Origin: Egibacteraceae bacterium
GTDB taxonomy: Bacteria > Actinomycetota > Nitriliruptoria > Euzebyales > Egibacteraceae
Length of the DNA stretch: 33,869 nucleotides
NCBI GenBank assembly: GCA_035540635.1
Contig: DATLGH010000091.1
Span: forward strand, 1 to 33,869
Direction: 5' to 3'
The translations under genes and the position numbers were made by a program. How positions within the stretch are numbered: the stretch's first letter is position 1; the number at the start of each line of letters is the position of its first letter. Positions 2,315 through 27,164 of the stretch are shown here, piece by piece. The notes beneath the pieces are model-generated. The model was not told where the DNA came from. It did no database searches and saw only the letters and a program-made list of their open reading frames with translations.

Positions 2315-3010
2315 TCACCGCACCAGGCCGTGGCGCATGGCCGTGACGACGGCCTGCACCCGGTCGTTGGCCTTGAGCTTCGCGTAGATGCGCGACAGGT
2401 GGCTCTTCACCGTCTCGTCACCCAACCCGAGCGCCTCGGCGATCTCCCGCGTCGAACGGCCGGTGGCGAGCTGCTCGAGCACCTGCTGCTCGCGGTTGGA
2501 CAGGGGGGTCAGCCCCGCGTGCGTGGCGAGGGGTCCGACCCGTTCGAGGAAGGGCCGGGTCACGTCCGGGTGCAGGAACCCCTTGCCGGCGGCGACGGCG
2601 CGCACCGCCTGCACGAGCTCCTCACGCCGGACGTTCTTCGGCAGGTACCCGGCCACCCCGGCCGCCACCGACCGGGTGACCGTGTCGTGGTCGGTGAACA
2701 TCGTGAGCGCGATGGCGCGGGTGGGGATGCCCCGCGCCTCGATCTCGCGCACGGCCGTGAGCCCGTCCATGCCGATGAGGTTCACGTCCACGAGCGCGAC
2801 GTCCGGCCGGTGGCGGTCGACGGCCTCGACGAGCGCCTCGCCGGAGGTGACGATGTCGATCACCTCCATGTCCTCCTCGAAGGAGAGCATGGTGGCCACC
2901 CCGTCCGCCACGACGCCATGGTCCTCGGCGATGACCACGCGGATGACGCCGCTGGGGGCGTCCCTGCTTGTGGGACTCTGGCCTTCAAGGGCTGGCCCGT
3001 TTGCACTCAC
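2315..3010 (-). CDS. NarL/FixJ-family response regulator
   Basis: The protein has 231 residues, with an N-terminal receiver domain and a C-terminal LuxR-type DNA-binding domain. In the receiver, acidic Asp30 lies in AED, the phosphoacceptor is Asp75 in LVDVN, Thr103 is in ALT and Lys125 in LPK, so all signalling residues are present. The HTH runs from about 167 to 231, with the typical LSNREQQVLEQLATG and ETVKSHLSRIYAKL segments. The start is a GTG at 3008-3010 that overlaps the kinase stop codon (GTGA), so translation is probably coupled to the kinase gene. It is almost certainly the partner of that kinase. Its target genes cannot be read from sequence; the tandem repeats upstream of the operon are candidate self-regulatory sites. 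Confidence 0.95.
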   Translation of the reverse strand: MSANGPALEGQSPTSRDAPSGVIRVVIAEDHGVVADGVATMLSFEEDMEVIDIVTSGEALVEAVDRHRPDVALVDVNLIGMDGLTAVREIEARGIPTRAIALTMFTDHDTVTRSVAAGVAGYLPKNVRREELVQAVRAVAAGKGFLHPDVTRPFLERVGPLATHAGLTPLSNREQQVLEQLATGRSTREIAEALGLGDETVKSHLSRIYAKLKANDRVQAVVTAMRHGLVR

Positions 3011-4680
3011 ACCGGCACCTCCACCTGCACCGTCGTTCCACGTCCAGGACTACTGTCAACGGTGAACCTGCCGCGCGCCAGCTCAACACGCTGGGACATG
3101 AGCGCAAGACCGTGGCTGCCCGGGTCGGTGGCGGTGGGGTCGAAGCCACAGCCGTCGTCGCGGACGTCCACGGCGATGAACCGCTCGCTCACCGCCAGAG
3201 AGACCTCGACCCTGTCCGCGCGTGCGTGCAGGGCGACGTTGGCCAGACAGCCACGGACCGTCTCCAGGACGAGGATCTCCACCGCCAAGGGTAGCGGAGG
3301 CAGGGGGTCTTCCGCCCGCAGCTCGCCGTCGACGCCGTGCTTCAGCCTGAGCTCCTCCAGGGCGTCAACGAGCCCCGGGCGCAACCCGCCCGGCACGACG
3401 ATCTGGCGCTGCAGCGCGTCGAGCACCTGGCGTAGGCGCGTGATGCCGTCGTGCACGGCCTCGCGGGTGGCGTCCGCCAGCCGGTCGGCGACCACCTCGT
3501 CCCCGGCGACGAGCGCGGACCGCACGTTGTCGGCCTGGATGCCGGCTGCGGCGAGGTACGGCAGGACTTCGTCGTGGATCTCCAACGCGATCCGGCTGCG
3601 CTCGCGGGTGCCCTCCTCGAGGATGCGCCCCGACAAGGCCGCACGTGCCCGCTCGACCTCGCTGAGCTCGCGCTCGAGCTCGAGGCGCTGGACGGCCATG
3701 CCGATCAAGCCGGCGATGGCTTCCACGACCGCCAAGGCGCTGTCGTCGAGGTCGTGGGGCACCCGGACGGCCGCCGGCTCGGCGCCGAGGACCGGCACGG
3801 TCCGCAGGTCGCTGCGGCCTTCCCCGCTCAGCGTGACCTCCACGTCGCGCGTCGCCAGGGCGTTGCGGAGGGCCTCCGCCGCCTTCCTGGGCAGCTGGGT
3901 GCGGTCCCGGACGGTCAGCAGGTCGGCGCTCAGGCTGTTGAGCGTCTCGAGGTCGGCCACCCGCGCGGCGAGCTGCTCGGCCCGGTCCTCGGCTTCCCGG
4001 GCGGACCGCAGGGCGCTGTAGCCGATGAGGAGCGGCAGGGCCAGCATTGCCACCGCCCACACGCCGACGGTGTCGTACGCGATGACGACGAAGGCTGCCA
4101 GGAGCGCCACGAGGACGTAGTCGACGGCGAACCGCGGGAAGGGTGCCGCCGACTCGACCGTTGCCTTGGGCAGGCGGGCCAGCCCCCGCGTCCAGAGACT
4201 GAGGGCCACCGCAACGGTGTTCACGACGTTGTAGACGACGACGGCCCCGAGCGTGACGGCCACGCGGGGGCCGGGCATTGCCATGGCGGCATACGAGGCG
4301 GCCGCCGCAGTGAGGCCCATCTGCGTGCGGTTGAACGCCGACATCCACAGCTGCGCCTGCCCACGCAGCTCGCGCTCGTTCGTGAAGCCGATGAGGTTCA
4401 CAAGCATGGCGAAGGGCGGCGGCAGGACAACGGCGGCGGCGACGCCAACGGGCGCGCCGAGGCTCGCGTCGATGTCGAGCTTCGGCAGCATGGGGATGAC
4501 AAGGAGGTTCGCGCCTGCGATGAAGCCGATCCACAGGACGGCTTGCAGCGGATTGCGGACGGCCTCGCCGATTCCAGCGGGGAGGAAGACGGCCGTACCG
4601 GCTATGAGCAGGCCCAGATAGACGCGAAAGGCCAGCGGGTACCGGGCGTCCTGCGTCGTTCGCGGGGCCCCGGCGGTCAC
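3007..4680 (-). CDS. Multi-pass membrane sensor histidine kinase (HisKA_3 type)
   Basis: The protein has 557 residues. Residues about 15-225 form a membrane domain of six or seven hydrophobic segments, followed by a helical linker (227-255) and a degenerate GAF-like region (about 255-335). The dimerisation/phosphoacceptor helix has His369 in ALEIHDEVLPYL, the DesK/NarX/ComP-like HisKA_3 form. The HATPase domain has Asn481 in its N box and DDGCGFD (508-514). The GTG start follows a strong GAGGAGGGCAG ribosome site. It overlaps the response regulator by 4 nt (GTGA). A 29-residue hydrophobic peptide gene lies 87 nt upstream on the same strand. The ligand is unknown. The large integral domain with no sizeable extracellular domain suggests sensing within or at the membrane. 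Confidence 0.94.
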   Translation of the reverse strand: MTAGAPRTTQDARYPLAFRVYLGLLIAGTAVFLPAGIGEAVRNPLQAVLWIGFIAGANLLVIPMLPKLDIDASLGAPVGVAAAVVLPPPFAMLVNLIGFTNERELRGQAQLWMSAFNRTQMGLTAAAASYAAMAMPGPRVAVTLGAVVVYNVVNTVAVALSLWTRGLARLPKATVESAAPFPRFAVDYVLVALLAAFVVIAYDTVGVWAVAMLALPLLIGYSALRSAREAEDRAEQLAARVADLETLNSLSADLLTVRDRTQLPRKAAEALRNALATRDVEVTLSGEGRSDLRTVPVLGAEPAAVRVPHDLDDSALAVVEAIAGLIGMAVQRLELERELSEVERARAALSGRILEEGTRERSRIALEIHDEVLPYLAAAGIQADNVRSALVAGDEVVADRLADATREAVHDGITRLRQVLDALQRQIVVPGGLRPGLVDALEELRLKHGVDGELRAEDPLPPLPLAVEILVLETVRGCLANVALHARADRVEVSLAVSERFIAVDVRDDGCGFDPTATDPGSHGLALMSQRVELARGRFTVDSSPGRGTTVQVEVPV

Positions 4681-4767
4681 CTGCCCTCCTCAGGTCGTGC
4701 GCCCCCTCGCGGTGGGGACGGCTCAACGCGGGAGAGGCTCCCCAACCCCTCCAGAGTGAGAGTTAGG

Positions 4768-4857
4768 TTACCAAGCGCTCTTGTTCGCGAACCCGGTGCA
4801 GAGCAGGCCTGCGATGGTGGTGAGCAGGGCCATGGCGCGGGGTGACAGTTTCTTCAC
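4768..4857 (-). CDS. 29-residue hydrophobic peptide, possible signal for the adjacent kinase
   Basis: This small ORF starts with GTG and is preceded by GGAG, 5 nt upstream. It begins MKKLSPR, has a hydrophobic core at residues 8-24 with one Cys (Cys20), and ends NKSAW with a C-terminal Trp. In 25 of 29 codons the third position is G or C, matching the genome bias, which supports real coding. The sequence around Cys20 does not fit a lipobox. It is the first gene of an apparent operon with a multi-TM HisKA_3 kinase and a LuxR-type regulator. The layout recalls ComX-ComP-ComA and AgrD-type pheromone loci, but no ComQ, AgrB or exporter is adjacent. It could instead be a small membrane regulator or a leader peptide. 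Confidence 0.6.
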   Translation of the reverse strand: MKKLSPRAMALLTTIAGLLCTGFANKSAW

Positions 4858-5116: not shown

Positions 5117-6175
5117 CTACTGGAGGAGGGCGGGGCCGAGGTCGGCGGCGGATTCCGCGCCAGCGGCCCATGCGCCCACCCGGAGCTGCTCGACGAGCAC
5201 CCCGACGGCGTCGATCGCCGCGTCGGGGCCCCGGGCGCCCGCGGCGAGCAGCCCCCGCGCTACGCCGGCGAGGTCGGCGCCGAGGCAGAGCACCTTCAGG
5301 GCGTCGACCCCGTGGCGGATGCCCCCCGAGCCGACGAGGAGCGGGGGGGCGTCCGCGGCGTCGAGGACCACACGCGCGTCGCGCACGGACGCCGCGGTGG
5401 GCCAGCCCCAGTCCGCGAACGCTGCCGCCACCCGGCCTGCCCGGTCGTCGCGCAGGCCCTCGACGCGCGCCCAGTTCGTCCCGCCGGCACCGGCGACGTC
5501 GATGCCCGCGACCCCCGCCTCGACCAGCCGTCTCACGTCCTCGGGCGCCATGCCGAAGCCCACCTCCTTGACGATCACCGGCACCTCGAGCGACGCGCAC
5601 AGATGCGCGACGAGCTCGAGGAGACCGCCGAAGGTGGTGTCACCGCCGGGCTGCACCGCCTCCTGCACGGCGTTGACGTGGAGCGCGAGCGCGTCCGCCG
5701 CACAGGCGGCAACGAGCCGACGGCAGTCGTCGGTGTCGCGCTCGTGGAGCTGCACGGCTCCGAGGTTCGCGAGCACGAGAATGTCGGGGGCGACATTTCG
5801 GACCGCGAACCCCGCCACCCGTTGAGGGTCGTCGAGCAGGACTCGGCCGGAACCGAGCCCGAAGGCGACGCCGTGGGTCTGGGCGGCTTCCGCCAGAGCC
5901 CGGTTGACCGGCCCGGCCTCGCTGATGCCGCCCGTCATGCACGACACGAGCAGGGGCACGGCGAGCGGGCGTCCCCACACCTCCAGCCCGAGGTCCACCT
6001 CGGCGAGGTCGCGTTCCGGAAGGGCGCGGGCGGCGACGCGGACGTCGTCGAGGCCGGTGCGCAGCGTGGCGAACCCCACGTCCCCGCCGAGGGTCAGCCG
6101 GAGATGGTCGCGTTTGCGGTCCTCGATGCCGGACGCGGCCTCGTCCTCCACGCTTCCTCCGAGCTGGTCGCGCAC
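5117..6175 (-). CDS. fni: Isopentenyl-diphosphate delta-isomerase, type 2 (FMN)
   Basis: The product is up to 352 residues. It interconverts IPP and DMAPP using FMN and NAD(P)H. Family signatures are clear: RKRDHL near the N-terminus, SCMTGG, NLGAVQL, LHVNAVQEAVQPGGD, IVKEVGFGM and GIDVAGAGGTNWARVE, then a GSGGIRHG phosphate-binding segment. The first GTG (6175) has no evident ribosome site. The GTG at 6149-6151 has GGAGG 4 nt upstream and would give 344 residues starting EDEAASG, so it is a good alternative. The gene is divergent from dxs, and both feed the carotenoid genes nearby. Type 2 isomerase is not essential with the DXP pathway but balances the two C5 units. Confidence 0.95.
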   Translation of the reverse strand: MRDQLGGSVEDEAASGIEDRKRDHLRLTLGGDVGFATLRTGLDDVRVAARALPERDLAEVDLGLEVWGRPLAVPLLVSCMTGGISEAGPVNRALAEAAQTHGVAFGLGSGRVLLDDPQRVAGFAVRNVAPDILVLANLGAVQLHERDTDDCRRLVAACAADALALHVNAVQEAVQPGGDTTFGGLLELVAHLCASLEVPVIVKEVGFGMAPEDVRRLVEAGVAGIDVAGAGGTNWARVEGLRDDRAGRVAAAFADWGWPTAASVRDARVVLDAADAPPLLVGSGGIRHGVDALKVLCLGADLAGVARGLLAAGARGPDAAIDAVGVLVEQLRVGAWAAGAESAADLGPALLQ

Positions 6176-6308: not shown

Positions 6309-8180
6309 ATGCTGCTCGACCACATAAGCTCGCCGCGTGACCTGCGGGCCCTGGACGCCGGGAACCTCGCCACGCTGGCCGAGGAGATCCGCGCCTTCAT
6401 CGTCGACGCCGTCGCCCGCAGCGGCGGGCATCTCGGCTCGAACCTCGGCGTCGTCGAGCTCACGCTCGCCATCCACCGGGTGTTCGACTCGCCCCGCGAC
6501 GTGGTGCTCTGGGACACCGGGCACCAGGCGTACGTGCACAAGCTCGTCACCGGCCGGCGCGACGGCTTCGACCGCCTCCGGCAGGCCGACGGGCTGTCCG
6601 GCTACCCGTCGCGCACCGAGTCGCCGCACGACTGGGTCGAGAACAGCCACGCGTCGACCATCCTGTCGTACGCGCACGGGCTAGCGACCGCAGCGCATGC
6701 CCGTGACGAGGAGCGCACGATCGTCGCGGTCGTCGGCGACGGGGCCATGACCGGCGGGATGGCCTACGAGGCCCTCAACAACCTCGGACACAGCGGCCGG
6801 CGGGTGGTCGTGATCCTCAACGACAACGGGCGCTCCTACGCCCCGACGGTCTCCCGCCTCGGCGAGAGCCTGTCGCGGCTGCGGCTGAACCCCTCCTACG
6901 TCTCGGCGAGCAAGCGCTGGGAGGCGCGTCTGGGGCGCCTGCCCGGACCGGCGGCCGGCATGGCCCGCTCGTGGCTGCGGGGCACGAAGGCTGCCCTGCG
7001 CGAGGTCGCGGAGGAGCCGCCGACGTTCTTCGAGGCGCTCGGCGTGCGCTACGTCGGCCCGATCGACGGCCACGACGTCGCGAAGATGGAGCACGTGCTG
7101 CGCCACGCCGCCGCCTACGACGGCCCGATCGTCGTGCACGTGCGCACCCACAAGGGGCGGGGCTACTCCCCCGCGGAGACCGACGTCGAGAAGCGACTGC
7201 ACGACACGTCCGCGTTCGACCCGCTCACCGGCCGGGCCCGCGGCCAGGAGCCCCCGAGCTACACCCACGTGTTCAGCGAGACCCTCCTCGCCCTGGCGGA
7301 GGAGTGCCCCGAGCTCGTGGCGATCACCGCGGCCATGCCGGGCTCGACCGGCCTGCTGCCCCTCGCTGCCCGCCACCCCGACCGGGTCTTCGACGTCGGC
7401 ATCGCCGAGCAGCACGCGGTCACGGCGGCCGCTGGCATGGCCATGGGCGGTCTCCGACCGGTCGTCGCGGTGTACTCGACCTTCTTCTCGCGGGCGTTCG
7501 ACCAGGCCAACCTCGACGTGGGACTGCACGGACTGCCGGTCGTGTTCGCGCTCGACCGCGCGGGGATCACCGGGGACGACGGCGCGTCACACCACGGGGT
7601 GCTCGACCTCGCCCTGTGCCTGCGCATCCCCGGCATGACCGTGCTCGCCCCCTCCTCGGCACGAGAGCTCCGCCGCATGCTCGCCGACGCGGTCCAGCTC
7701 GAGGGCCCGGTGGCCGTGCGGTTCCCGAAAGGACGCGCCCGCACGGTCGGGCCCGACGAGGTCGGATCCGGCCTGCGCGCCCGGCGCATCCGTTCGGGCG
7801 CCGGCGCCGAGGTGTGCATCCTCGCCGTCGGCAAGCTCGTGGAGTCGTGCGAGGAGGCCGCCGCGCACCTTGACGCCGACGGCGTCGGCGTGTCGCTGTG
7901 GGACGTGCGCGTCTGCAAGCCACTCGACCCAGAGATGCTGCGGGACGCGGCGGCGCACGACCTCGTCGTCACGGTCGAGGACGGCGTCGCGGTCGGCGGC
8001 GTGGGCTCGGCGATCGCCGACGGCGTCGCGGCGCTCGACGAGGCCCGGACGGCCCCACGGATGGCACACCTCGGCACGCCCGACGCCTACCTGCCGCATG
8101 CCAAGCCGGCGCGGATCCTCACAAACCTCGGTCTCGACGGCCCGGGGATCGCCGCCGCGGTCCGCAAGGCGCTCGCCTGA
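6309..8180 (+). CDS. dxs: 1-deoxy-D-xylulose-5-phosphate synthase
   Basis: The protein has 623 residues, full length for Dxs. It joins pyruvate and glyceraldehyde 3-phosphate in the first step of the DXP (MEP) isoprenoid pathway, using ThDP. Visible motifs are GGHLGSNLGVVELT, the WDTGHQAYVHK segment, the ThDP/Mg motif VVGDGAMTGGMAYEALNN with LNDNGRSYAP, and the transketolase central motif DVGIAEQHAVTAAAGMA. A C-terminal transketolase domain follows. The ATG follows GGGAGG at 9 nt spacing. The gene is divergent from fni and convergent with crtB, with 18 nt between stops, so it sits among its pathway partners. It probably provides extra flux for carotenoids; whether it is the only dxs in the genome cannot be told. 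Confidence 0.96.
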   Translation: MLLDHISSPRDLRALDAGNLATLAEEIRAFIVDAVARSGGHLGSNLGVVELTLAIHRVFDSPRDVVLWDTGHQAYVHKLVTGRRDGFDRLRQADGLSGYPSRTESPHDWVENSHASTILSYAHGLATAAHARDEERTIVAVVGDGAMTGGMAYEALNNLGHSGRRVVVILNDNGRSYAPTVSRLGESLSRLRLNPSYVSASKRWEARLGRLPGPAAGMARSWLRGTKAALREVAEEPPTFFEALGVRYVGPIDGHDVAKMEHVLRHAAAYDGPIVVHVRTHKGRGYSPAETDVEKRLHDTSAFDPLTGRARGQEPPSYTHVFSETLLALAEECPELVAITAAMPGSTGLLPLAARHPDRVFDVGIAEQHAVTAAAGMAMGGLRPVVAVYSTFFSRAFDQANLDVGLHGLPVVFALDRAGITGDDGASHHGVLDLALCLRIPGMTVLAPSSARELRRMLADAVQLEGPVAVRFPKGRARTVGPDEVGSGLRARRIRSGAGAEVCILAVGKLVESCEEAAAHLDADGVGVSLWDVRVCKPLDPEMLRDAAAHDLVVTVEDGVAVGGVGSAIADGVAALDEARTAPRMAHLGTPDAYLPHAKPARILTNLGLDGPGIAAAVRKALA

Positions 8181-8198: not shown

Positions 8199-9221
8199 TC
8201 ATCGGCGCGGAGCGAGCACCGCCTCTGTAAAGGCGACGGCGGCCTTGCTCCGCGCTGGGACGGTCGCCCGGACCCGGAACACCTGGTAGTCGCAGCCTTC
8301 GATGGCGTCGAGGATCCCCGCGTAGAGGCGGTGGGCGACCCGGATGCACGTCCGGCTCGCGGGCGGCAGCATCGCCCAGCCAGCCTCGGCACGCCGGTAC
8401 AGGGCCCGCGTCCGCGCGATCTCGAAGGCGAGCAGCCGGCGGAAGGCCGGGCCCACGTGGCGCAGACGGAAGTCATGCTCGATGACCCCGAAGCGATCGA
8501 GATCCTCGAGCGGCAGGTATATCCGTCCGCGGTCCCAGTCCTCGGCGACGTCGCGCAGGAAGTTGGTGAGCTGGAAGGCCACCCCGAGGTCCATGGCCCG
8601 GGCCCGGGCGTCGCGGTGCGTCGCGCCGAGCACGGGCAGCATCATCGATCCGATGACCGCGGCCGACCCGTAGGTGTAGGCGGACAGGTCGGCGTAGGTC
8701 CGGTACCGGGCGACGGTGAGGTCCATGGCCATGGAGCGCAGGAACGCCTCGAGGTCGTCGTGGCGGATCGCGAGCTCCTCGACGGTGTGGAGCACCGCGA
8801 CGAGCACGGGTTCGCTCGTCCGCCCCGTGGCGAGGGCGACGCGGAACTCATCGATCCACGCCTCGAAGGACCTGCGGCGCCGCGCTGGGTCCCACGACAG
8901 GGCGAGGTGGTCGACGAGGTCGTCGGCGTACCGGGCGAAGGCGTAGAGCGCGTGGACGTGGCGCCTGCGCTCCGCCGGCAGGAACCGTGTAGCGAAGTAG
9001 AAGGTCCGCCCGTGCGCCGCGTGCAGCCGCCGGCAGAGCTCGTAGCTGCGCTCGACCGACACGCCGACCCGCCCGCCGACGAACGCCGGTGCGGGCGGGG
9101 GATGCCGGTAGCCGCCCGTCGACCGGTGCGGGGACAGGGCCCGTCCGGGCTCAGGCCGACCGGCCCGCAGCGTGCCGACGTGAGCGCTCGGCCCTGGGTG
9201 AGGGCGCGCACCGGTCACCAC
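8199..9221 (-). CDS. crtB: Phytoene synthase (squalene/phytoene synthase family)
   Basis: The enzyme condenses two GGPP molecules to phytoene. Both Asp-rich Mg-diphosphate motifs are present, YADDLVD in the first third and RDVAEDWDRGRIYLP in the second half. Further family segments are YELCRRLHAAHGRTFYFATRFLP and AFQLTNFLRD. The GTG at 9221 has a strong GGGGGAAGGG site, giving 340 residues with a Pro/Arg-rich N-terminal extension of about 53 residues. Homology begins at VSVERSYELC, where a GTG at 9060-9062 is an alternative start but has no good ribosome site. The gene lies 16 nt downstream of crtI in the crtE-crtI-crtB operon. Confidence 0.93.
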   Translation of the reverse strand: MVTGARPHPGPSAHVGTLRAGRPEPGRALSPHRSTGGYRHPPPAPAFVGGRVGVSVERSYELCRRLHAAHGRTFYFATRFLPAERRRHVHALYAFARYADDLVDHLALSWDPARRRRSFEAWIDEFRVALATGRTSEPVLVAVLHTVEELAIRHDDLEAFLRSMAMDLTVARYRTYADLSAYTYGSAAVIGSMMLPVLGATHRDARARAMDLGVAFQLTNFLRDVAEDWDRGRIYLPLEDLDRFGVIEHDFRLRHVGPAFRRLLAFEIARTRALYRRAEAGWAMLPPASRTCIRVAHRLYAGILDAIEGCDYQVFRVRATVPARSKAAVAFTEAVLAPRR

Positions 9222-9237: not shown

Positions 9238-10725
9238 TCACCCGGGAACCATGTCCGCGAGCCGCTCGAGGGTGCGCTCGGCTGCGAGCTTCCCGGACAG
9301 CAGCACCATGGGGACGCCGACCCCCGGGATGGTCGACGACCCGACGAACACGACGCCGCGAACCTTGGGAGCGACGTTGGCGGGACGGAACGGCCCCGTC
9401 TGGAAGAAGTGGTGGCTGACGGCGAACGGCGTGCCCGCCGCCATCCCGCGCGCTGCCCAGTCCTCGGGGGTCACGACCTCGCTCGTGACGGTGGCGGCCC
9501 GGGCGGGGCCGTAGCCGGCCTCCTCCAGCCGCCGCTGCGCAACCGCCAGCTCACGCGGCCCCTGCGCCGCCCAACGGATCGGGTCGCCGCGCAGGTTCGG
9601 CGTCGGGAGGAGGTAGAAGGCCACCTCGCCGCCGGGGGGCGCGAGCCCGGGGTCGGTGACGGTCGGGACGCTGAGGAACCACGACGCGTCGCGCTGCATC
9701 CGTCCGGCGAGGATGTCGTCGAACGACGCCTGGTAGTCCCTGGCGAAGTGGATGTTGTGGTGGGCGGCTCCGTCGAGGCGGGCGTCGAGGCCCAGGTGGA
9801 CGACCACGCACGACGGCGAGTACCGCAGGGAGCGGACCCGTCGAGGCGTCGCCGTGGGCGGCAGGAGGTCGCGGTAGGCCACCGGGAGGTCGGGATTGCA
9901 GACGACGACGTCGGCGGTCAGTCGCTCGCCGCCGGCGAGCAGCACGCCCCTCGCGCGTCCGTGCGTGGTGTCGACGGCGTCCACCGGCGTGTCGAGGCGC
10001 AGGTCGACGCCCATGCGGACGGCGAGGGCGGCGAGCTCCTCGCTGACCCGGTAGACGCCGCCCGCGGGGAAGAACACGCCGGCGATGGCGTCCATGTAGG
10101 CGATCACCGCGTAGATCCCGAGCGCCTCGTAGGGGCTCATCCCCGCGTACATCGACTGGAAGGTGAACAGCCGCACGAGGCGCCAGTCGGTGAGGAAGCT
10201 CGACACGAGCCCGTGCACACGGCGGAAGCCGCCGAGGCGGACGAGCCGGGCGAGGGCCACCGGCCGCGCGAGGTCCAGGGGCGAGTCGAAGTTCGCATCG
10301 ATGAAGGTGGCGTACTCGGCTTCGTAGAGCTCACCCAGCCGTCGCGCGAACCGCACGAACCGGTCGGCCTCCGCCGCGCCGCACACCGCGCGTACCTCGT
10401 CGACCATCGCCTCGAGGTTGCCGCGCACGGCGAGCTGCGAACCGTCGTGGAAGCACGCGCGGTAGGCCGGGTCGAGCCGGGTCAACGGCAGGTGGTCCGC
10501 CCGCGATGCTCCCGCCAACGCGAAGAGCTCGTCGAGCAGCGCCGGCATCGTGAGCACGCTCGGCCCGGTGTCGAAGGCGTACCCGTCGCGTTCGAGACGT
10601 CCCGCCCGACCACCGGGACGCGGCTCGCGCTCGACGACGGTCACCGACGCCCCGGCTGCGGCGAGCCGGACCGCGGCGGCAAGCCCGCCTAGTCCGGCGC
10701 CGACGACCACGACGCGGCCCGGCAC
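9238..10725 (-). CDS. crtI: Phytoene desaturase (CrtI family)
   Basis: A 495-residue FAD-dependent desaturase that introduces double bonds into phytoene. The N-terminal dinucleotide fold reads VVVGAGLGGLAAAVRLAAAG, followed by VVEREPRPGGRAG. The C-terminal FAD segment is VVFVGSSTIPGVGVPMVLLSGK, diagnostic of the CrtI class. The start is GTG, 5 nt after the crtE stop, so translation is probably coupled. The number of desaturation steps, and so the final carotenoid, cannot be predicted from sequence. Related CrtN/CrtO-type enzymes are less likely, given the crtE and crtB neighbours. Confidence 0.93.
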   Translation of the reverse strand: MPGRVVVVGAGLGGLAAAVRLAAAGASVTVVEREPRPGGRAGRLERDGYAFDTGPSVLTMPALLDELFALAGASRADHLPLTRLDPAYRACFHDGSQLAVRGNLEAMVDEVRAVCGAAEADRFVRFARRLGELYEAEYATFIDANFDSPLDLARPVALARLVRLGGFRRVHGLVSSFLTDWRLVRLFTFQSMYAGMSPYEALGIYAVIAYMDAIAGVFFPAGGVYRVSEELAALAVRMGVDLRLDTPVDAVDTTHGRARGVLLAGGERLTADVVVCNPDLPVAYRDLLPPTATPRRVRSLRYSPSCVVVHLGLDARLDGAAHHNIHFARDYQASFDDILAGRMQRDASWFLSVPTVTDPGLAPPGGEVAFYLLPTPNLRGDPIRWAAQGPRELAVAQRRLEEAGYGPARAATVTSEVVTPEDWAARGMAAGTPFAVSHHFFQTGPFRPANVAPKVRGVVFVGSSTIPGVGVPMVLLSGKLAAERTLERLADMVPG

Positions 10726-10730
10726 GTCCT

Positions 10731-11840
10731 TCAGCCCGTCCGGTTCGCCGCGAACTCGGCGAGCTCCTCGAGCGCCTGCCGCGCAGGCGGCGCCACACCG
10801 GCCAGAGCCCGGTGGGCCAGTGCCTGCTGCTCGACGAGGAGCCGTTCGACGGCGGCGAGGGCGCCCGAGTCGACGACGATCTCGCGCACCCGGCTTGCCG
10901 CGTCCTCGTCGAGGCCTGGGTTGCCGAGGCAGTCGGCGAGCACGTCGCGCTCCGCCGGGCGGGCCCGGTCGAGCGCCTTCAGCATGAGCAGCGTGCGCTT
11001 GCCCTCCCGCAGGTCGGACAGGGCGCCCTTGCCGGTGTGGGAGGGATCACCGAACAACCCCAGGACGTCGTCGCGCAGCTGGAACGCCAGACCGGTCGCG
11101 TCCCCGTAGGCGGACAGGGAGTCGTCCAGGACGCGCGAACCCCTGCCCACGGCGGCTCCGAGCTGCAGCGGCCGGGTGACGGTGTAGCGGCCGGACTTCA
11201 GCAGCGCCACGCGCAGCGACTCCCCTTCGCTCGCGTCCAGGCGCCCGGCCAGCCGCAGGTCGAGGTACTGGCCGGCCATCACCTCGATGCGCAGGAGGGT
11301 GAAGACCCTGCGCGCGTGCGCGACGACGTCGGGCGGCAGCTCGGCGGCGTCGAAGAGCTCGTCGGCCCACACGAAGGCGAGGTCGCCCGCGAGGATCGCC
11401 CCTCCTATGCCGAACCACGACCGGTCCCCGTCGAGTCCCTCGCGGTCGTGCGTGCGCGCCAGCCCCTCGTGGACGGCGGGGCGCCCGCGGCGCTCGGCCG
11501 AGCGGTCCATGACGTCGTCGTGGATGAGCGCGAAGGTGTGGAGCAGCTCGACGGCCGCGGCGGGCCCGAACACCACCTCGTCGTGCGCGGCCCCCGTCGC
11601 CCGGTGGCCCCAGTAGACGAACGCGGGTCGCAGTCGCTTGCCGCTGGCCCGCACGAGCGCGGCGATCTCGTCGCCGATGGGTGCGAGCGCCGGGTCGAGC
11701 GCCGACAGGCCGGCGACCCGCTCGTCGAGGAAGCGGTCGAGCACCATGTCGACCGCGCCGTGCACGGCGTCGAGCGCGGCGACGGTCCGGGTCATCGGCA
11801 GGTCACCGACGACGACCGATCCCGTCGTGGACTCCAGCAT
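10731..11840 (-). CDS. crtE: Polyprenyl diphosphate synthase, likely GGPP synthase
   Basis: A 369-residue E-type prenyltransferase. It carries GKRLRP (67-72), the first Asp-rich motif DDVMD (108-112) with the following RRGRP, and a second Asp-rich motif, FQLRDDVLGLFGD. It elongates allylic diphosphates with IPP. Its position as first gene of a crtE-crtI-crtB set makes geranylgeranyl diphosphate the likely product, although chain length is inferred. The ATG at 11838-11840 follows GAGGGG at 5 nt; the TTG just before it is unlikely to be used. A 75-nt gap with small hairpins separates it from gatB on the same strand, so readthrough from the gat operon is possible. Confidence 0.9.
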   Translation of the reverse strand: MLESTTGSVVVGDLPMTRTVAALDAVHGAVDMVLDRFLDERVAGLSALDPALAPIGDEIAALVRASGKRLRPAFVYWGHRATGAAHDEVVFGPAAAVELLHTFALIHDDVMDRSAERRGRPAVHEGLARTHDREGLDGDRSWFGIGGAILAGDLAFVWADELFDAAELPPDVVAHARRVFTLLRIEVMAGQYLDLRLAGRLDASEGESLRVALLKSGRYTVTRPLQLGAAVGRGSRVLDDSLSAYGDATGLAFQLRDDVLGLFGDPSHTGKGALSDLREGKRTLLMLKALDRARPAERDVLADCLGNPGLDEDAASRVREIVVDSGALAAVERLLVEQQALAHRALAGVAPPARQALEELAEFAANRTG

Positions 11841-11915
11841 CAACGCCCCTCATGCACCGCTGCCCTTGGGTGCGTGCACCCCTGCTCCGGTGCGCAGCAC
11901 CGCTACCTTAGCCCT

Positions 11916-25511: not shown

Positions 25512-27164
25512 TCAAAAGACCGCGACGCGCTCGCCCATCCCGACCCGCGGGAAGACGAAGTCGGCGTCCCCGTCGTACAGGCGCAGGCAGCCGTTGCTCG
25601 CGGGGTACAGCGGGATGGACGGGTAGCCGTGGATGGCGTATCCGCGGAAGAAGAACATCGACCGGTACATGTGGTTCGCCTGGCGGGTGTTGCGCTTCTC
25701 GTACACCGAAAAGGTGCCGAGCACCGTCGGCGTCGATGGCTTGCCGCTCGAGGTGTGGAAGGCGTGCGCGACCCGCCCGTCGCGCACGAGCAGCACGAGC
25801 TGGCGGGCGAGGTCGATCTCGATGTGGTTCGGTCCGAGGTCCGGGCGGCGCACGGGCAGCTCGGGGCGCCCGAGCATCGCGCCCCACTCCCGCTCGGCGA
25901 ACTGCCCGTTCACCGGCAGGCCGGCGACCTTCTGGAAGGCGTACACCGCCCAGACACTCTGGCCGTCGATGTGCCCGTCGATCGGGCCGGTGTTGTACCC
26001 CTGACGGGCCAGCTCCTCCTCGATGCAGCGCCACGGGCGTGCGGCTCCCTCGTGTAGCTGGCACATGGCCACGGGGCCGATCGCGGCAGCGCCGCCGATC
26101 GGCGTGACGTGCGCCGGACCGTGGGCCGCCAGCCACTGCATGAGGGGCCCGGCGAGCTGCGCCCGACCGGTCGCGAGGAGCGGCGCACGTCGCGCCGCGC
26201 CGGCGTAGACACCCCCGGTGAGACCGTCGGGGAAGTTCGTCGCACCGACGACGACCGGCGGGCCGGTGAGCCCCAGCGCCCGCCCGCGAGTCGCCACGGC
26301 CGCGGCGGTCGCCGTGCGCTCGGGCCCGGCGAGCCGCTCGAGCGCGGGCAGGCCGGCGACGGCGGGGTCGGGCAGCGCGCCGGCCCCGCCTACCACCCAC
26401 GTCCTGCGTGCCCCGAGCGCGGTGACCTGCTCGGCCAGCCGGGCGTGGCCGTTGTCCTTGGGTGACAGCAGGATCGGGTAGCGGAACGCCGCGGCGAGCG
26501 GGGTGGCCGCCAGGGCGTCGGCGAAGCCCTGCCCGCTCGCGACGAGCACCGTGGAGGTGTCCGCGCCGAGCTCGGCCGCGCGCTGGGCGATCGCGAAGGC
26601 GGTGTCGTAGCGGCCCTCGCCGCGGATGCGTTCGGTGGGAAGCCCGAGGCCTGCCACCGTCGCCTCCACCGCGTCGGCCACCCGCCCGACGACGTACACC
26701 GTGCGGGGCTGCAGCCGGCGCAGCTCGTCGGCCGTGGCCGGGTGCAGCGACGTCGTCGGCGTCAGGAGCAGCGGCCCTCCCGTGGTCCCGGCGAGGGTCG
26801 CGGCGGCGAGCGCGTCGGGGTAGTCCTCTCCGGTGGCGAGCACCGCCGCCGGTGCCGTCCCCGGCCACCCGGTACGGCTGACCGTGACCGCGGTCGCGTA
26901 ACGGTCCCTGCCGGCCAGGGGCTCGACGGCAGGCCGGCGCCATCCGCCCGACGATGCGGAGAGGGTCGCGGTGGGCGGCGCCGCGAACGAGTGGACGCCC
27001 TCAGGCTCGGACGGGTCGTCGAGGGGGTGCGCCGCGCCGGGGGCGGGCGCATCGACTTCGTCAGCAGGGGGCTCGCCGGCGCCGGCGGCGGGTGCACCGA
27101 GCAGGCTCGCCGCGAGGGCGGTGACCGCCAGTGCCGCAATCCGGCTGCGTCGGCTCCGGACCAT
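25512..27164 (-). CDS. Cell-wall-binding repeat (CWB2) L,D-transpeptidase
   Basis: A secreted protein of 550 residues. It has an Arg-rich signal peptide (about 1-29) and a Pro/Ala linker. Three CWB2 repeats span about 82-355 ([12 protein letters not shown] ... [27 protein letters not shown] ... [12 protein letters not shown], and a third degenerate copy). A peptidoglycan-binding-like segment (about 385-425, [26 protein letters not shown]) precedes a C-terminal YkuD catalytic domain. Catalytic His512, Cys526 and Arg528 lie in [19 protein letters not shown]. It should make 3-3 cross-links in, or attach proteins to, peptidoglycan while held on the wall by the repeats. The ATG follows GGGAGGGAG at about 6 nt. 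Confidence 0.93.

Follow-up and report, generated by a model that had tools for sequence, protein, structure and literature searches.

A widespread family of tiny peptide genes beside MASE9 membrane sensors: candidate signal peptides for a histidine kinase of an Egibacteraceae bacterium and for other sensor proteins

The window, i.e., the whole stretch of DNA analyzed here, comprises 33,869 nucleotides (nt) of contig DATLGH010000091.1 (assembly GCA_035540635.1) from an Egibacteraceae bacterium of the phylum Actinomycetota. On its minus strand lies a micropeptide gene, followed by the genes of a sensor histidine kinase and of a NarL/LuxR-type response regulator (Table 1). The original prediction, made from the sequence alone, read these genes as a new peptide–kinase–regulator signaling triad. 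Its gene calls are borne out. The 29-codon gene has its own ribosome site, GGAG, about 5 bases 5′ of the GTG start; the third-position bias claimed for it is seen as G or C in 25 of 29 codons, in a window of 73% GC; and the kinase and regulator genes, with their HisKA_3 and NarL/LuxR-type domains matched, do overlap by GTGA. The window peptide matches no family of Pfam or NCBIfam at an expectation value (E) ≤ 1, and an Rfam search of the window returned no element.

Table 1. Features of the micropeptide locus and the neighboring isoprenoid genes, in window coordinates (aa, amino acids; ORF, open reading frame; AF2, AlphaFold2; pLDDT, predicted local distance difference test)
Feature	Coordinates	Strand	Basis
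Micropeptide gene, 29 aa, VKKLSPRAMALLTTIAGLLCTGFANKSAW	4768..4857	-	GTG start, TAA stop; 29-aa ORF conserved 5′ of orthologous kinases, with P, R, L, A, and W columns invariant
Leader part, residues 1-24	4786..4857	-	Basic N-terminus, hydrophobic core, small residues up to Ala24 (...GFA)
Predicted signal tail NKSAW, residues 25-29	4771..4785	-	Window family pattern x-[KR]-x-x-W
Sensor histidine kinase, 557 aa	3007..4680	-	HATPase_c 41 bits, HisKA_3 35 bits
Kinase N-terminal membrane sensor domain, divergent MASE9, predicted S-component-like fold	3985..4680	-	MASE9 18.4 bits; AF2 pLDDT 92.5
HisKA_3 + HATPase_c kinase core, residues about 360-557	3010..3603	-	Domain matches
NarL/LuxR-type response regulator, 231 aa	2315..3010	-	Response_reg + GerE; GTGA overlap with kinase at 3007-3010
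Type-2 isopentenyl diphosphate (IPP) isomerase	5117-6175	-	Family match; gene adjoining peptide
dxs	6309-8180	+	Family match
Phytoene/squalene-synthase type	8199-9221	-	Family match
crtI-type	9238-10725	-	Family match
Polyprenyl synthetase (PF00348)	10731-11843	-	Scores as prenyl diphosphate synthase

Orthologs of the kinase (41-61% identical, with syntenic regulators 72-87% identical) are present in many genomes of two families of the same order, that of the window genome (f1) and another (f2). The original prediction had pointed to such loci as the place to look for the short ORF. An ORF of exactly 29 codons does lie 5′ of eight kinase orthologs, with the pattern [MV]xK[LFI]xPR...L...G.A..[KR]x.W, and a ninth (genome G007) has a related upstream peptide, MNARIHRILASLSILGALLASAGASKSMW. 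A profile built from nine peptides and searched against 66 genomes of the class, independently of the kinase, found full-length matches (E 1e-12 to 5e-17) at f1 kinase loci only; it scores the window ORF at E 6e-16 in its own genome. Because of this score, and because the same ORF recurs 5′ of orthologous kinases, the 29-residue peptide gene is real, far beyond chance. Arg7, Leu18, Ala24, and Trp29 are invariant in ten f1 peptides, and position 26 is always K or R. Synonymous change in the f1 peptide genes is near saturation, with a proportion of synonymous differences (pS) of 0.60 vs. a nonsynonymous proportion (pN) of 0.36. The peptide sequence is constrained. An ORF carried at orthologous loci and a constrained sequence together support the proposed triad. 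The predicted emphasis on the C-terminal NKSAW with its Trp was well placed, the conserved residues being the Trp and the K or R three residues before it. The weight put on the single Cys was not: the Cys is private to this genome, and it was rejected as a functional residue. Directly behind the peptide gene of genome G017 is a tandem array of 4.6 copies of a 65-nt unit (L063:8145-8442) that re-encodes the peptide end, as ANKSGW or CNKSGW, in shifting frames; since a 65-nt period is not a multiple of 3, the array was given little weight.

The peptide is not confined to the kinase. Run over 396 genomes of the phylum, the nine-peptide profile gave weak matches to tiny ORFs in distant families, and the examples MKRIFLLLTTLATLVLSGGAAARW, MKRIYFRIAAVLATLAALFVSSGAGVHWR, and MKARITILLTTLAALLLSGGAHWRW each lie directly 5′ of a gene for a membrane protein with MASE9 and HD-GYP domains. 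Because the window kinase also matches MASE9, MASE9 genes were surveyed; PF20972 was found in 97 of 296 genomes, and 90 loci were used. A loose criterion asked for an ORF of 18-36 aa with a Shine–Dalgarno sequence, K or R in residues 2-6, and a hydrophobic stretch, located between -350 and +100 relative to the sensor frame. Such an ORF is present at 38 of 43 MASE9-HD-GYP genes (shuffled expectation 7.6), 15 of 40 MASE9 genes with other outputs (4.8), and 12 of 18 f1-type kinases (2.6). Among controls, the counts are 1/14 for HD-GYP genes without MASE9, 1/10 for HisKA_3 kinases without MASE9, and 26/222 for other long ORFs (18.5 expected). When an aromatic residue in the last three positions is also required, 29 of the 43, 13 of the 40, and 11 of the 18 loci are retained, and the three controls fall to 1/14, 0/10, and 4/222.

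As the survey criterion had been chosen after the first loci were seen, a reverse test was run. A profile of 38 peptides, searched over the 296 genomes at E ≤ 0.001, gave 53 matches, and 17 of the 20 that lie outside the profile set adjoin a MASE9 gene. The remaining ones are a match at a contig edge (G041:C458), a lipoprotein leader in G086, which is a false positive, and a match with no MASE9 gene within 3 kb and a DUF5317 gene beside it (G074:C53). The first survey counted same-strand ORFs only; the reverse test added peptide genes divergent from a MASE9 gene or placed between two of them. A divergent ORF of 32 aa in G150 (L087:1584-1486, minus strand), MAALVKKYAPKVIGLATIAGLFVAGGAAVNCR, about 300 nt from a MASE9 gene and with a Cys-Arg end, is a possible variant of the family.

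All eight named MASE9-HD-GYP loci of a separate genome collection, including those of Ca. Oleimmundimicrobium and Ca. Subteraquimicrobium, carry a peptide; at least one of these records overlaps genomes already seen. A plasmid of Natranaerobius thermophilus (Bacillota) encodes MNKVVLILVTLLGVVLAGGASFTWGGGG before a MASE9-HD-GYP gene. In that record the MASE9-HD-GYP gene is annotated as two overlapping frames (L223:3813-5104) and looks broken, and the peptide gene beside it (3682-3768) is unannotated. MASE9 sensors preceded by related peptides of 20-33 residues have kinase, HD-GYP, or GGDEF outputs, in Actinomycetota and on the one Bacillota plasmid. The window peptide belongs to a large, widespread, and apparently undescribed family of tiny peptides encoded beside one class of membrane sensor. 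The triad as originally drawn was too narrow in scope, as the same peptide type also pairs with HD-GYP and GGDEF proteins. Since the same module occurs with other outputs, peptide plus MASE9 would be the conserved signaling unit, with an interchangeable output.

An alignment of 60 family peptides displays a common plan: basic residues at the start, then a leader that is hydrophobic or amphipathic, small residues of which the last is A, and a short tail. GA followed by 2-6 residues is found in 43 of the 60; a basic residue is among the last five in 58, and an aromatic residue among the last four in 54. Trp as an absolute feature of the family was rejected, as some lineages end in GSRMG, GGRLG, or RSRV. 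Orthologs of the peptide genes have pN/pS ratios of 0.18-0.33. In several low-GC genomes there are two tandem peptide genes, identical or nearly so in their coding part, with diverged DNA behind. Searched against Pfam and NCBIfam, the family peptides reach no family's cut-off.

Diversification of the tail is most apparent in one family, f46, with 27 genomes, 23 of them carrying a peptide, and 24 loci. There the 20-residue leader, MKRIAFLLASLAALVLGGGA, is nearly invariant, and the next 4-6 residues take 21 forms in the 24 loci: FTKM, LKIPTQ, SYVVSR, WIRG, WFRA, WFRL, AWKM, AIKW, QFKW, IWKG, VWKY, SFRW, SLRW, MYRV, SFKM, IWKW, YFKL, VWKV, MWRM, VWKW, and NFRM. Residues 17-20 have an entropy of 0 to 0.4 bits, residues 21-24 one of 1.4-3.2 bits. 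Pairs of genomes place the boundary sharply. Between G185 and G215, 79 of 80 upstream bases and 59 of 60 leader bases match, followed by 75 of 300 (an ungapped count). Between G432 and G433, identity is 0.99 up to the leader, 0.49-0.61 across the tail and MASE9, and 0.91-0.95 from HD-GYP on; the HD-GYP domains are 98% identical and the MASE9 domains 57%. G442 has two f46-type loci with different tails. With HD-GYP similarity removed, tail similarity and MASE9 similarity are correlated (partial r 0.46, permutation p 2e-4, over 22 f46 loci that are not fully independent). From these mosaics and this correlation it follows that tail and MASE9 are exchanged as one specificity block, between species in which the flanking parts share about 95-99% identity. 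Co-diversification of ligand and receptor, a feature of pheromone classes, is thus found in f46, where the swapping of tail and sensor has the structure expected of pherotypes. The original prediction had overlooked it.

A candidate helper in f46 is DUF5317 (PF17248), a membrane protein encoded 2.7-6.4 kb 3′ of the peptide for 21 of the 24 DUF5317 matches. In L281 and L283, the two loci read from end to end, DUF5317 comes after the sensor gene and another gene that lacks HD-GYP motifs; behind it lies a large frame for a P-loop ATPase (L281:4471-6001, and in L283), MalT-like by eye, which is a possible target or regulator. DUF5317 genes are also seen at peptide/MASE9-HD-GYP loci L091:3515-4114 (-), L092:10350-10913 (-), L241:2941-3531 (+), and L223:5330-5611 (+), the one in L241 being directly 3′ of an orphan peptide gene. 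The window genome has a single DUF5317 copy, on another contig. Among 14 control genomes, the same two, Thermus composti and Thermotoga maritima, have both MASE9 and DUF5317. No relevant literature on DUF5317 was found, with preprints and most subscription journals outside the coverage of the search. A further conserved protein, of 216-245 aa and unannotated, is encoded 5′ of the peptide at several HD-GYP-type loci and on the Bacillota plasmid (L091:7209-7856 (-), L093:4131-4835 (+), L223, and L283); it has the motifs ..TIEEIHVLALP.. and ..ATLDAINRR.. and no Pfam match.

We turn to the receptor. The window kinase scores under the MASE9 cut-off of Pfam (18.4 vs. 24.3 bits) and is filed as MASE9-like; two orthologs, L071 (G005) and L066 (G016), just reach the cut-off with 24.5 and 25.8 bits. 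Two conserved Asn columns, N117 and N154, align with clear MASE9 proteins. Mean identity among the kinase orthologs is 0.38 in the MASE9 region vs. 0.56 in the kinase core, the MASE9 region being the more variable. An AF2 model of residues 1-232 (52 sequences, pLDDT 92.5, predicted template modeling score 0.88) has about seven membrane-length helixes, in keeping with the six to seven transmembrane segments originally predicted. The top structural matches of this model are all S-components of energy-coupling factor (ECF) transporters, i.e., NikM (Z 14.4; 3.3 Å over 179 residues), FolT (14.3), and CbiM (13.0), followed by PanT, BioY, RibU, and ThiT; the first unrelated fold is Lnt (Z 7.9). A model of an HD-GYP-type MASE9 domain (pLDDT 89.7) likewise has only ECF S-components at the top, with a best Z of 14.0 vs. 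7.8 for the first unrelated fold. Because Foldseek alone gave no match with E below 0.001, the fold call rests on structural alignment and on the consistent top rows. The MASE9 sensor domain is predicted with high confidence to have the ECF S-component fold; like the gene, its MASE9 linkage, and the co-diversification, the fold model is a computational result. S-components bind small external ligands near their outer face, and the fusion of the S-component-like domain with a kinase or HD-GYP output speaks for a receptor role. Within the same literature coverage, MASE9 sensors had no known ligand, and no relevant paper was found. 5TMR kinases are described as sharing the S-component fold by Partipilo and Slotboom (PMC11109136), whose main text does not mention MASE domains. 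The 5TMR-LYT/LytS-type kinases treated there resemble the present proteins in having an S-component-fold membrane sensor, an expected outer ligand site, and fused signaling outputs, and differ in that here the sensor is MASE9, the outputs are others, and a genetically linked peptide is the candidate ligand.

Taken together, we consider it likely that the cognate ligand sensed by MASE9 proteins outside the cell is the C-terminal tail, which is probably set free by proteolysis. The window ORF would encode a precursor, and the signal peptide made from it would be linear and very short. The basic, hydrophobic leader would carry this precursor to the membrane, leaving 4-6 residues at the C-terminus, in the window NKSAW or a close cut, exposed outside. 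The tail would be released most likely by a protease cutting behind a small-residue site such as ...GA; in the window, cleavage would fall behind Ala24. The choice of NKSAW is a prediction by analogy with the f46 tails, which are hypervariable and swap with their receptors. The tail may then be recognized by the adjacent kinase, in the pocket of its S-component-like MASE9 domain, whereupon the kinase would control phosphorylation of the NarL-type regulator. Elsewhere the signal would go mainly to HD-GYP outputs, i.e., cyclic di-GMP (c-di-GMP) phosphodiesterases, or to GGDEF outputs. We infer the cleavage, secretion, and direct binding in this scheme, as well as the sign of the response and the target genes.

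Several observations weigh against this scheme. Five syntenic kinase orthologs (L066, L073, L076, L077, and L078) have no detectable peptide, and one large MASE9 subgroup is usually without one. The loose survey criterion was set after the first 30 loci had been inspected, and the MASE9 match of the window kinase falls below the Pfam gathering score. Some precursors are amphipathic and not signal-peptide-like (L104, L131, and L180), and for a substrate of ordinary signal peptidases a tail of 4-6 residues is very short. The swap evidence comes from f46; the window family keeps its C-terminal Trp fixed.

The gene neighborhood bears on one alternative, a pheromone of the ComX type. The order gatB, polyprenyl synthetase, crtI, crtB-type, dxs, IPP isomerase, [peptide], kinase, regulator, acetolactate synthase is conserved, and these isoprenoid and carotenoid genes keep their order beside the kinase–regulator pair in most f1 and f2 genomes. 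(Farther off, window 25512-27164, minus strand, encodes three CWB2 cell-wall-binding repeats, a peptidoglycan-binding domain, and a YkuD L,D-transpeptidase domain in one protein.) The polyprenyl synthetase could be imagined to act as ComQ and isoprenylate the invariant Trp, since it is a PF00348 enzyme in the same conserved cluster; the C-terminal Trp, the HisKA_3 kinase, and the NarL-type regulator fit as well, the last two being weak indicators common to many two-component systems. ComQ belongs to PF00348, and ComX precursors have 52-73 aa with Trp in the last 5-10 residues (PMC4008528). The window peptide, although it has the Trp, is of 29 aa and matches no ComX family, and its neighbor is a type-2 IPP isomerase instead of an adjacent same-strand ComQ. 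The only PF00348 gene identified lies about 6 kb off in a group of carotenoid genes, separated from the peptide by four genes, and its product scores as a prenyl diphosphate synthase. Since relatives have W, F, or Y as the aromatic residue, or none at all, prenylation of Trp cannot be a general feature, and we regard a ComX-like pheromone as very improbable. The ComX/ComP/ComA analogy of the original prediction may still hold as a mode; membership in ComQXPA was rejected for want of a ComQ partner and for the wrong precursor. The two systems have in common a ribosomal precursor with a C-terminal aromatic residue, a HisKA_3 kinase with an N-terminal membrane sensor, a NarL/LuxR regulator, and diversification into communication groups, as described for B. 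subtilis ComQXPA in PMC4408185 and PMC4008528. They differ in that the present family has 20-33-aa precursors, no adjacent ComQ, a MASE9-like receptor, and also HD-GYP and GGDEF outputs.

A second alternative, unlikely but the most serious of those weighed, is that the micropeptide remains intact in the membrane as a cis-acting modulator of its sensor, its tail touching the MASE9 pocket, with no release and no cell–cell signal. The small membrane regulators MgrB and SafA, which act on the kinase PhoQ, make such a mode possible for a tiny membrane peptide on a sensor kinase; here, in contrast, peptide and sensor are encoded side by side, and tail and sensor domain diversify together. A length of 20-33 aa, a single hydrophobic stretch, a basic N-terminus, a leader conserved as well as the tail, and the lack of a dedicated export or processing gene adjoining the window peptide would all suit a cis-modulator. 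Yet some precursors are amphipathic and could hardly span a membrane, and hypervariable tails behind a near-invariant leader, together with allele swaps, fit communication groups and not a housekeeping cis-subunit. Cell–cell signaling is favored because the alleles diversify. Agr (AgrBDCA) likewise has a short membrane-targeted leader, a variable C-terminal signal, a polytopic receptor, and mosaic allele swaps, all of which recur here; the MASE9 peptides differ from it in having no conserved Cys or Ser for a thiolactone and no acidic tail, and the kinase is HisKA_3 and not HPK10-type. No AgrB-like gene is found in the window or at f1 loci, where the peptide's neighbors are isoprenoid, kinase, and regulator genes, nor by eye in L091-L093; an AgrB profile was not run over all loci. 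Agr membership is unlikely, and a cyclic lactone equally so, because no Cys or Ser is fixed among the family tails, the Cys being found in the window genome only. That the ORF is a regulatory leader peptide, controlling sensor expression by attenuation or translational coupling, is suggested by its place just 5′ of the sensor, usually in the same direction, but the prospect is slim: the amino acid sequence, the C-terminus above all, is conserved across phyla, whereas the spacing from the sensor is far from constant; peptide genes can be in tandem, some are transcribed divergently from the sensor, and no Rfam element is present in the window. Finally, a short hydrophobic peptide whose N-terminus is basic can easily arise, and 12% of ordinary genes satisfy the loose criterion; that the ORF exists by chance, or encodes some unrelated small hydrophobic protein (a type I toxin, for example), is nevertheless barely credible given a single copy, a profile E of 1e-12 to 1e-17, a fixed partner, and co-variation with the receptor.

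Our reading, then, is of a released tail acting on a MASE9 sensor. With somewhat less confidence than we give the tail as ligand, we lean toward peptide plus MASE9 being an undescribed class of peptide signaling, with linear aromatic/basic tails of 4-6 residues, S-component-fold receptors, and interchangeable outputs. What is new here is the receptor class and the peptide family; the system would work like peptide quorum sensing. If so, the class would be widespread in Actinomycetota and present also in Bacillota, of which one plasmid was covered, and c-di-GMP enzymes would receive a direct, self-made peptide input. The pairing offers a testable ligand for many c-di-GMP and two-component proteins at once, with tails short enough for chemical synthesis.

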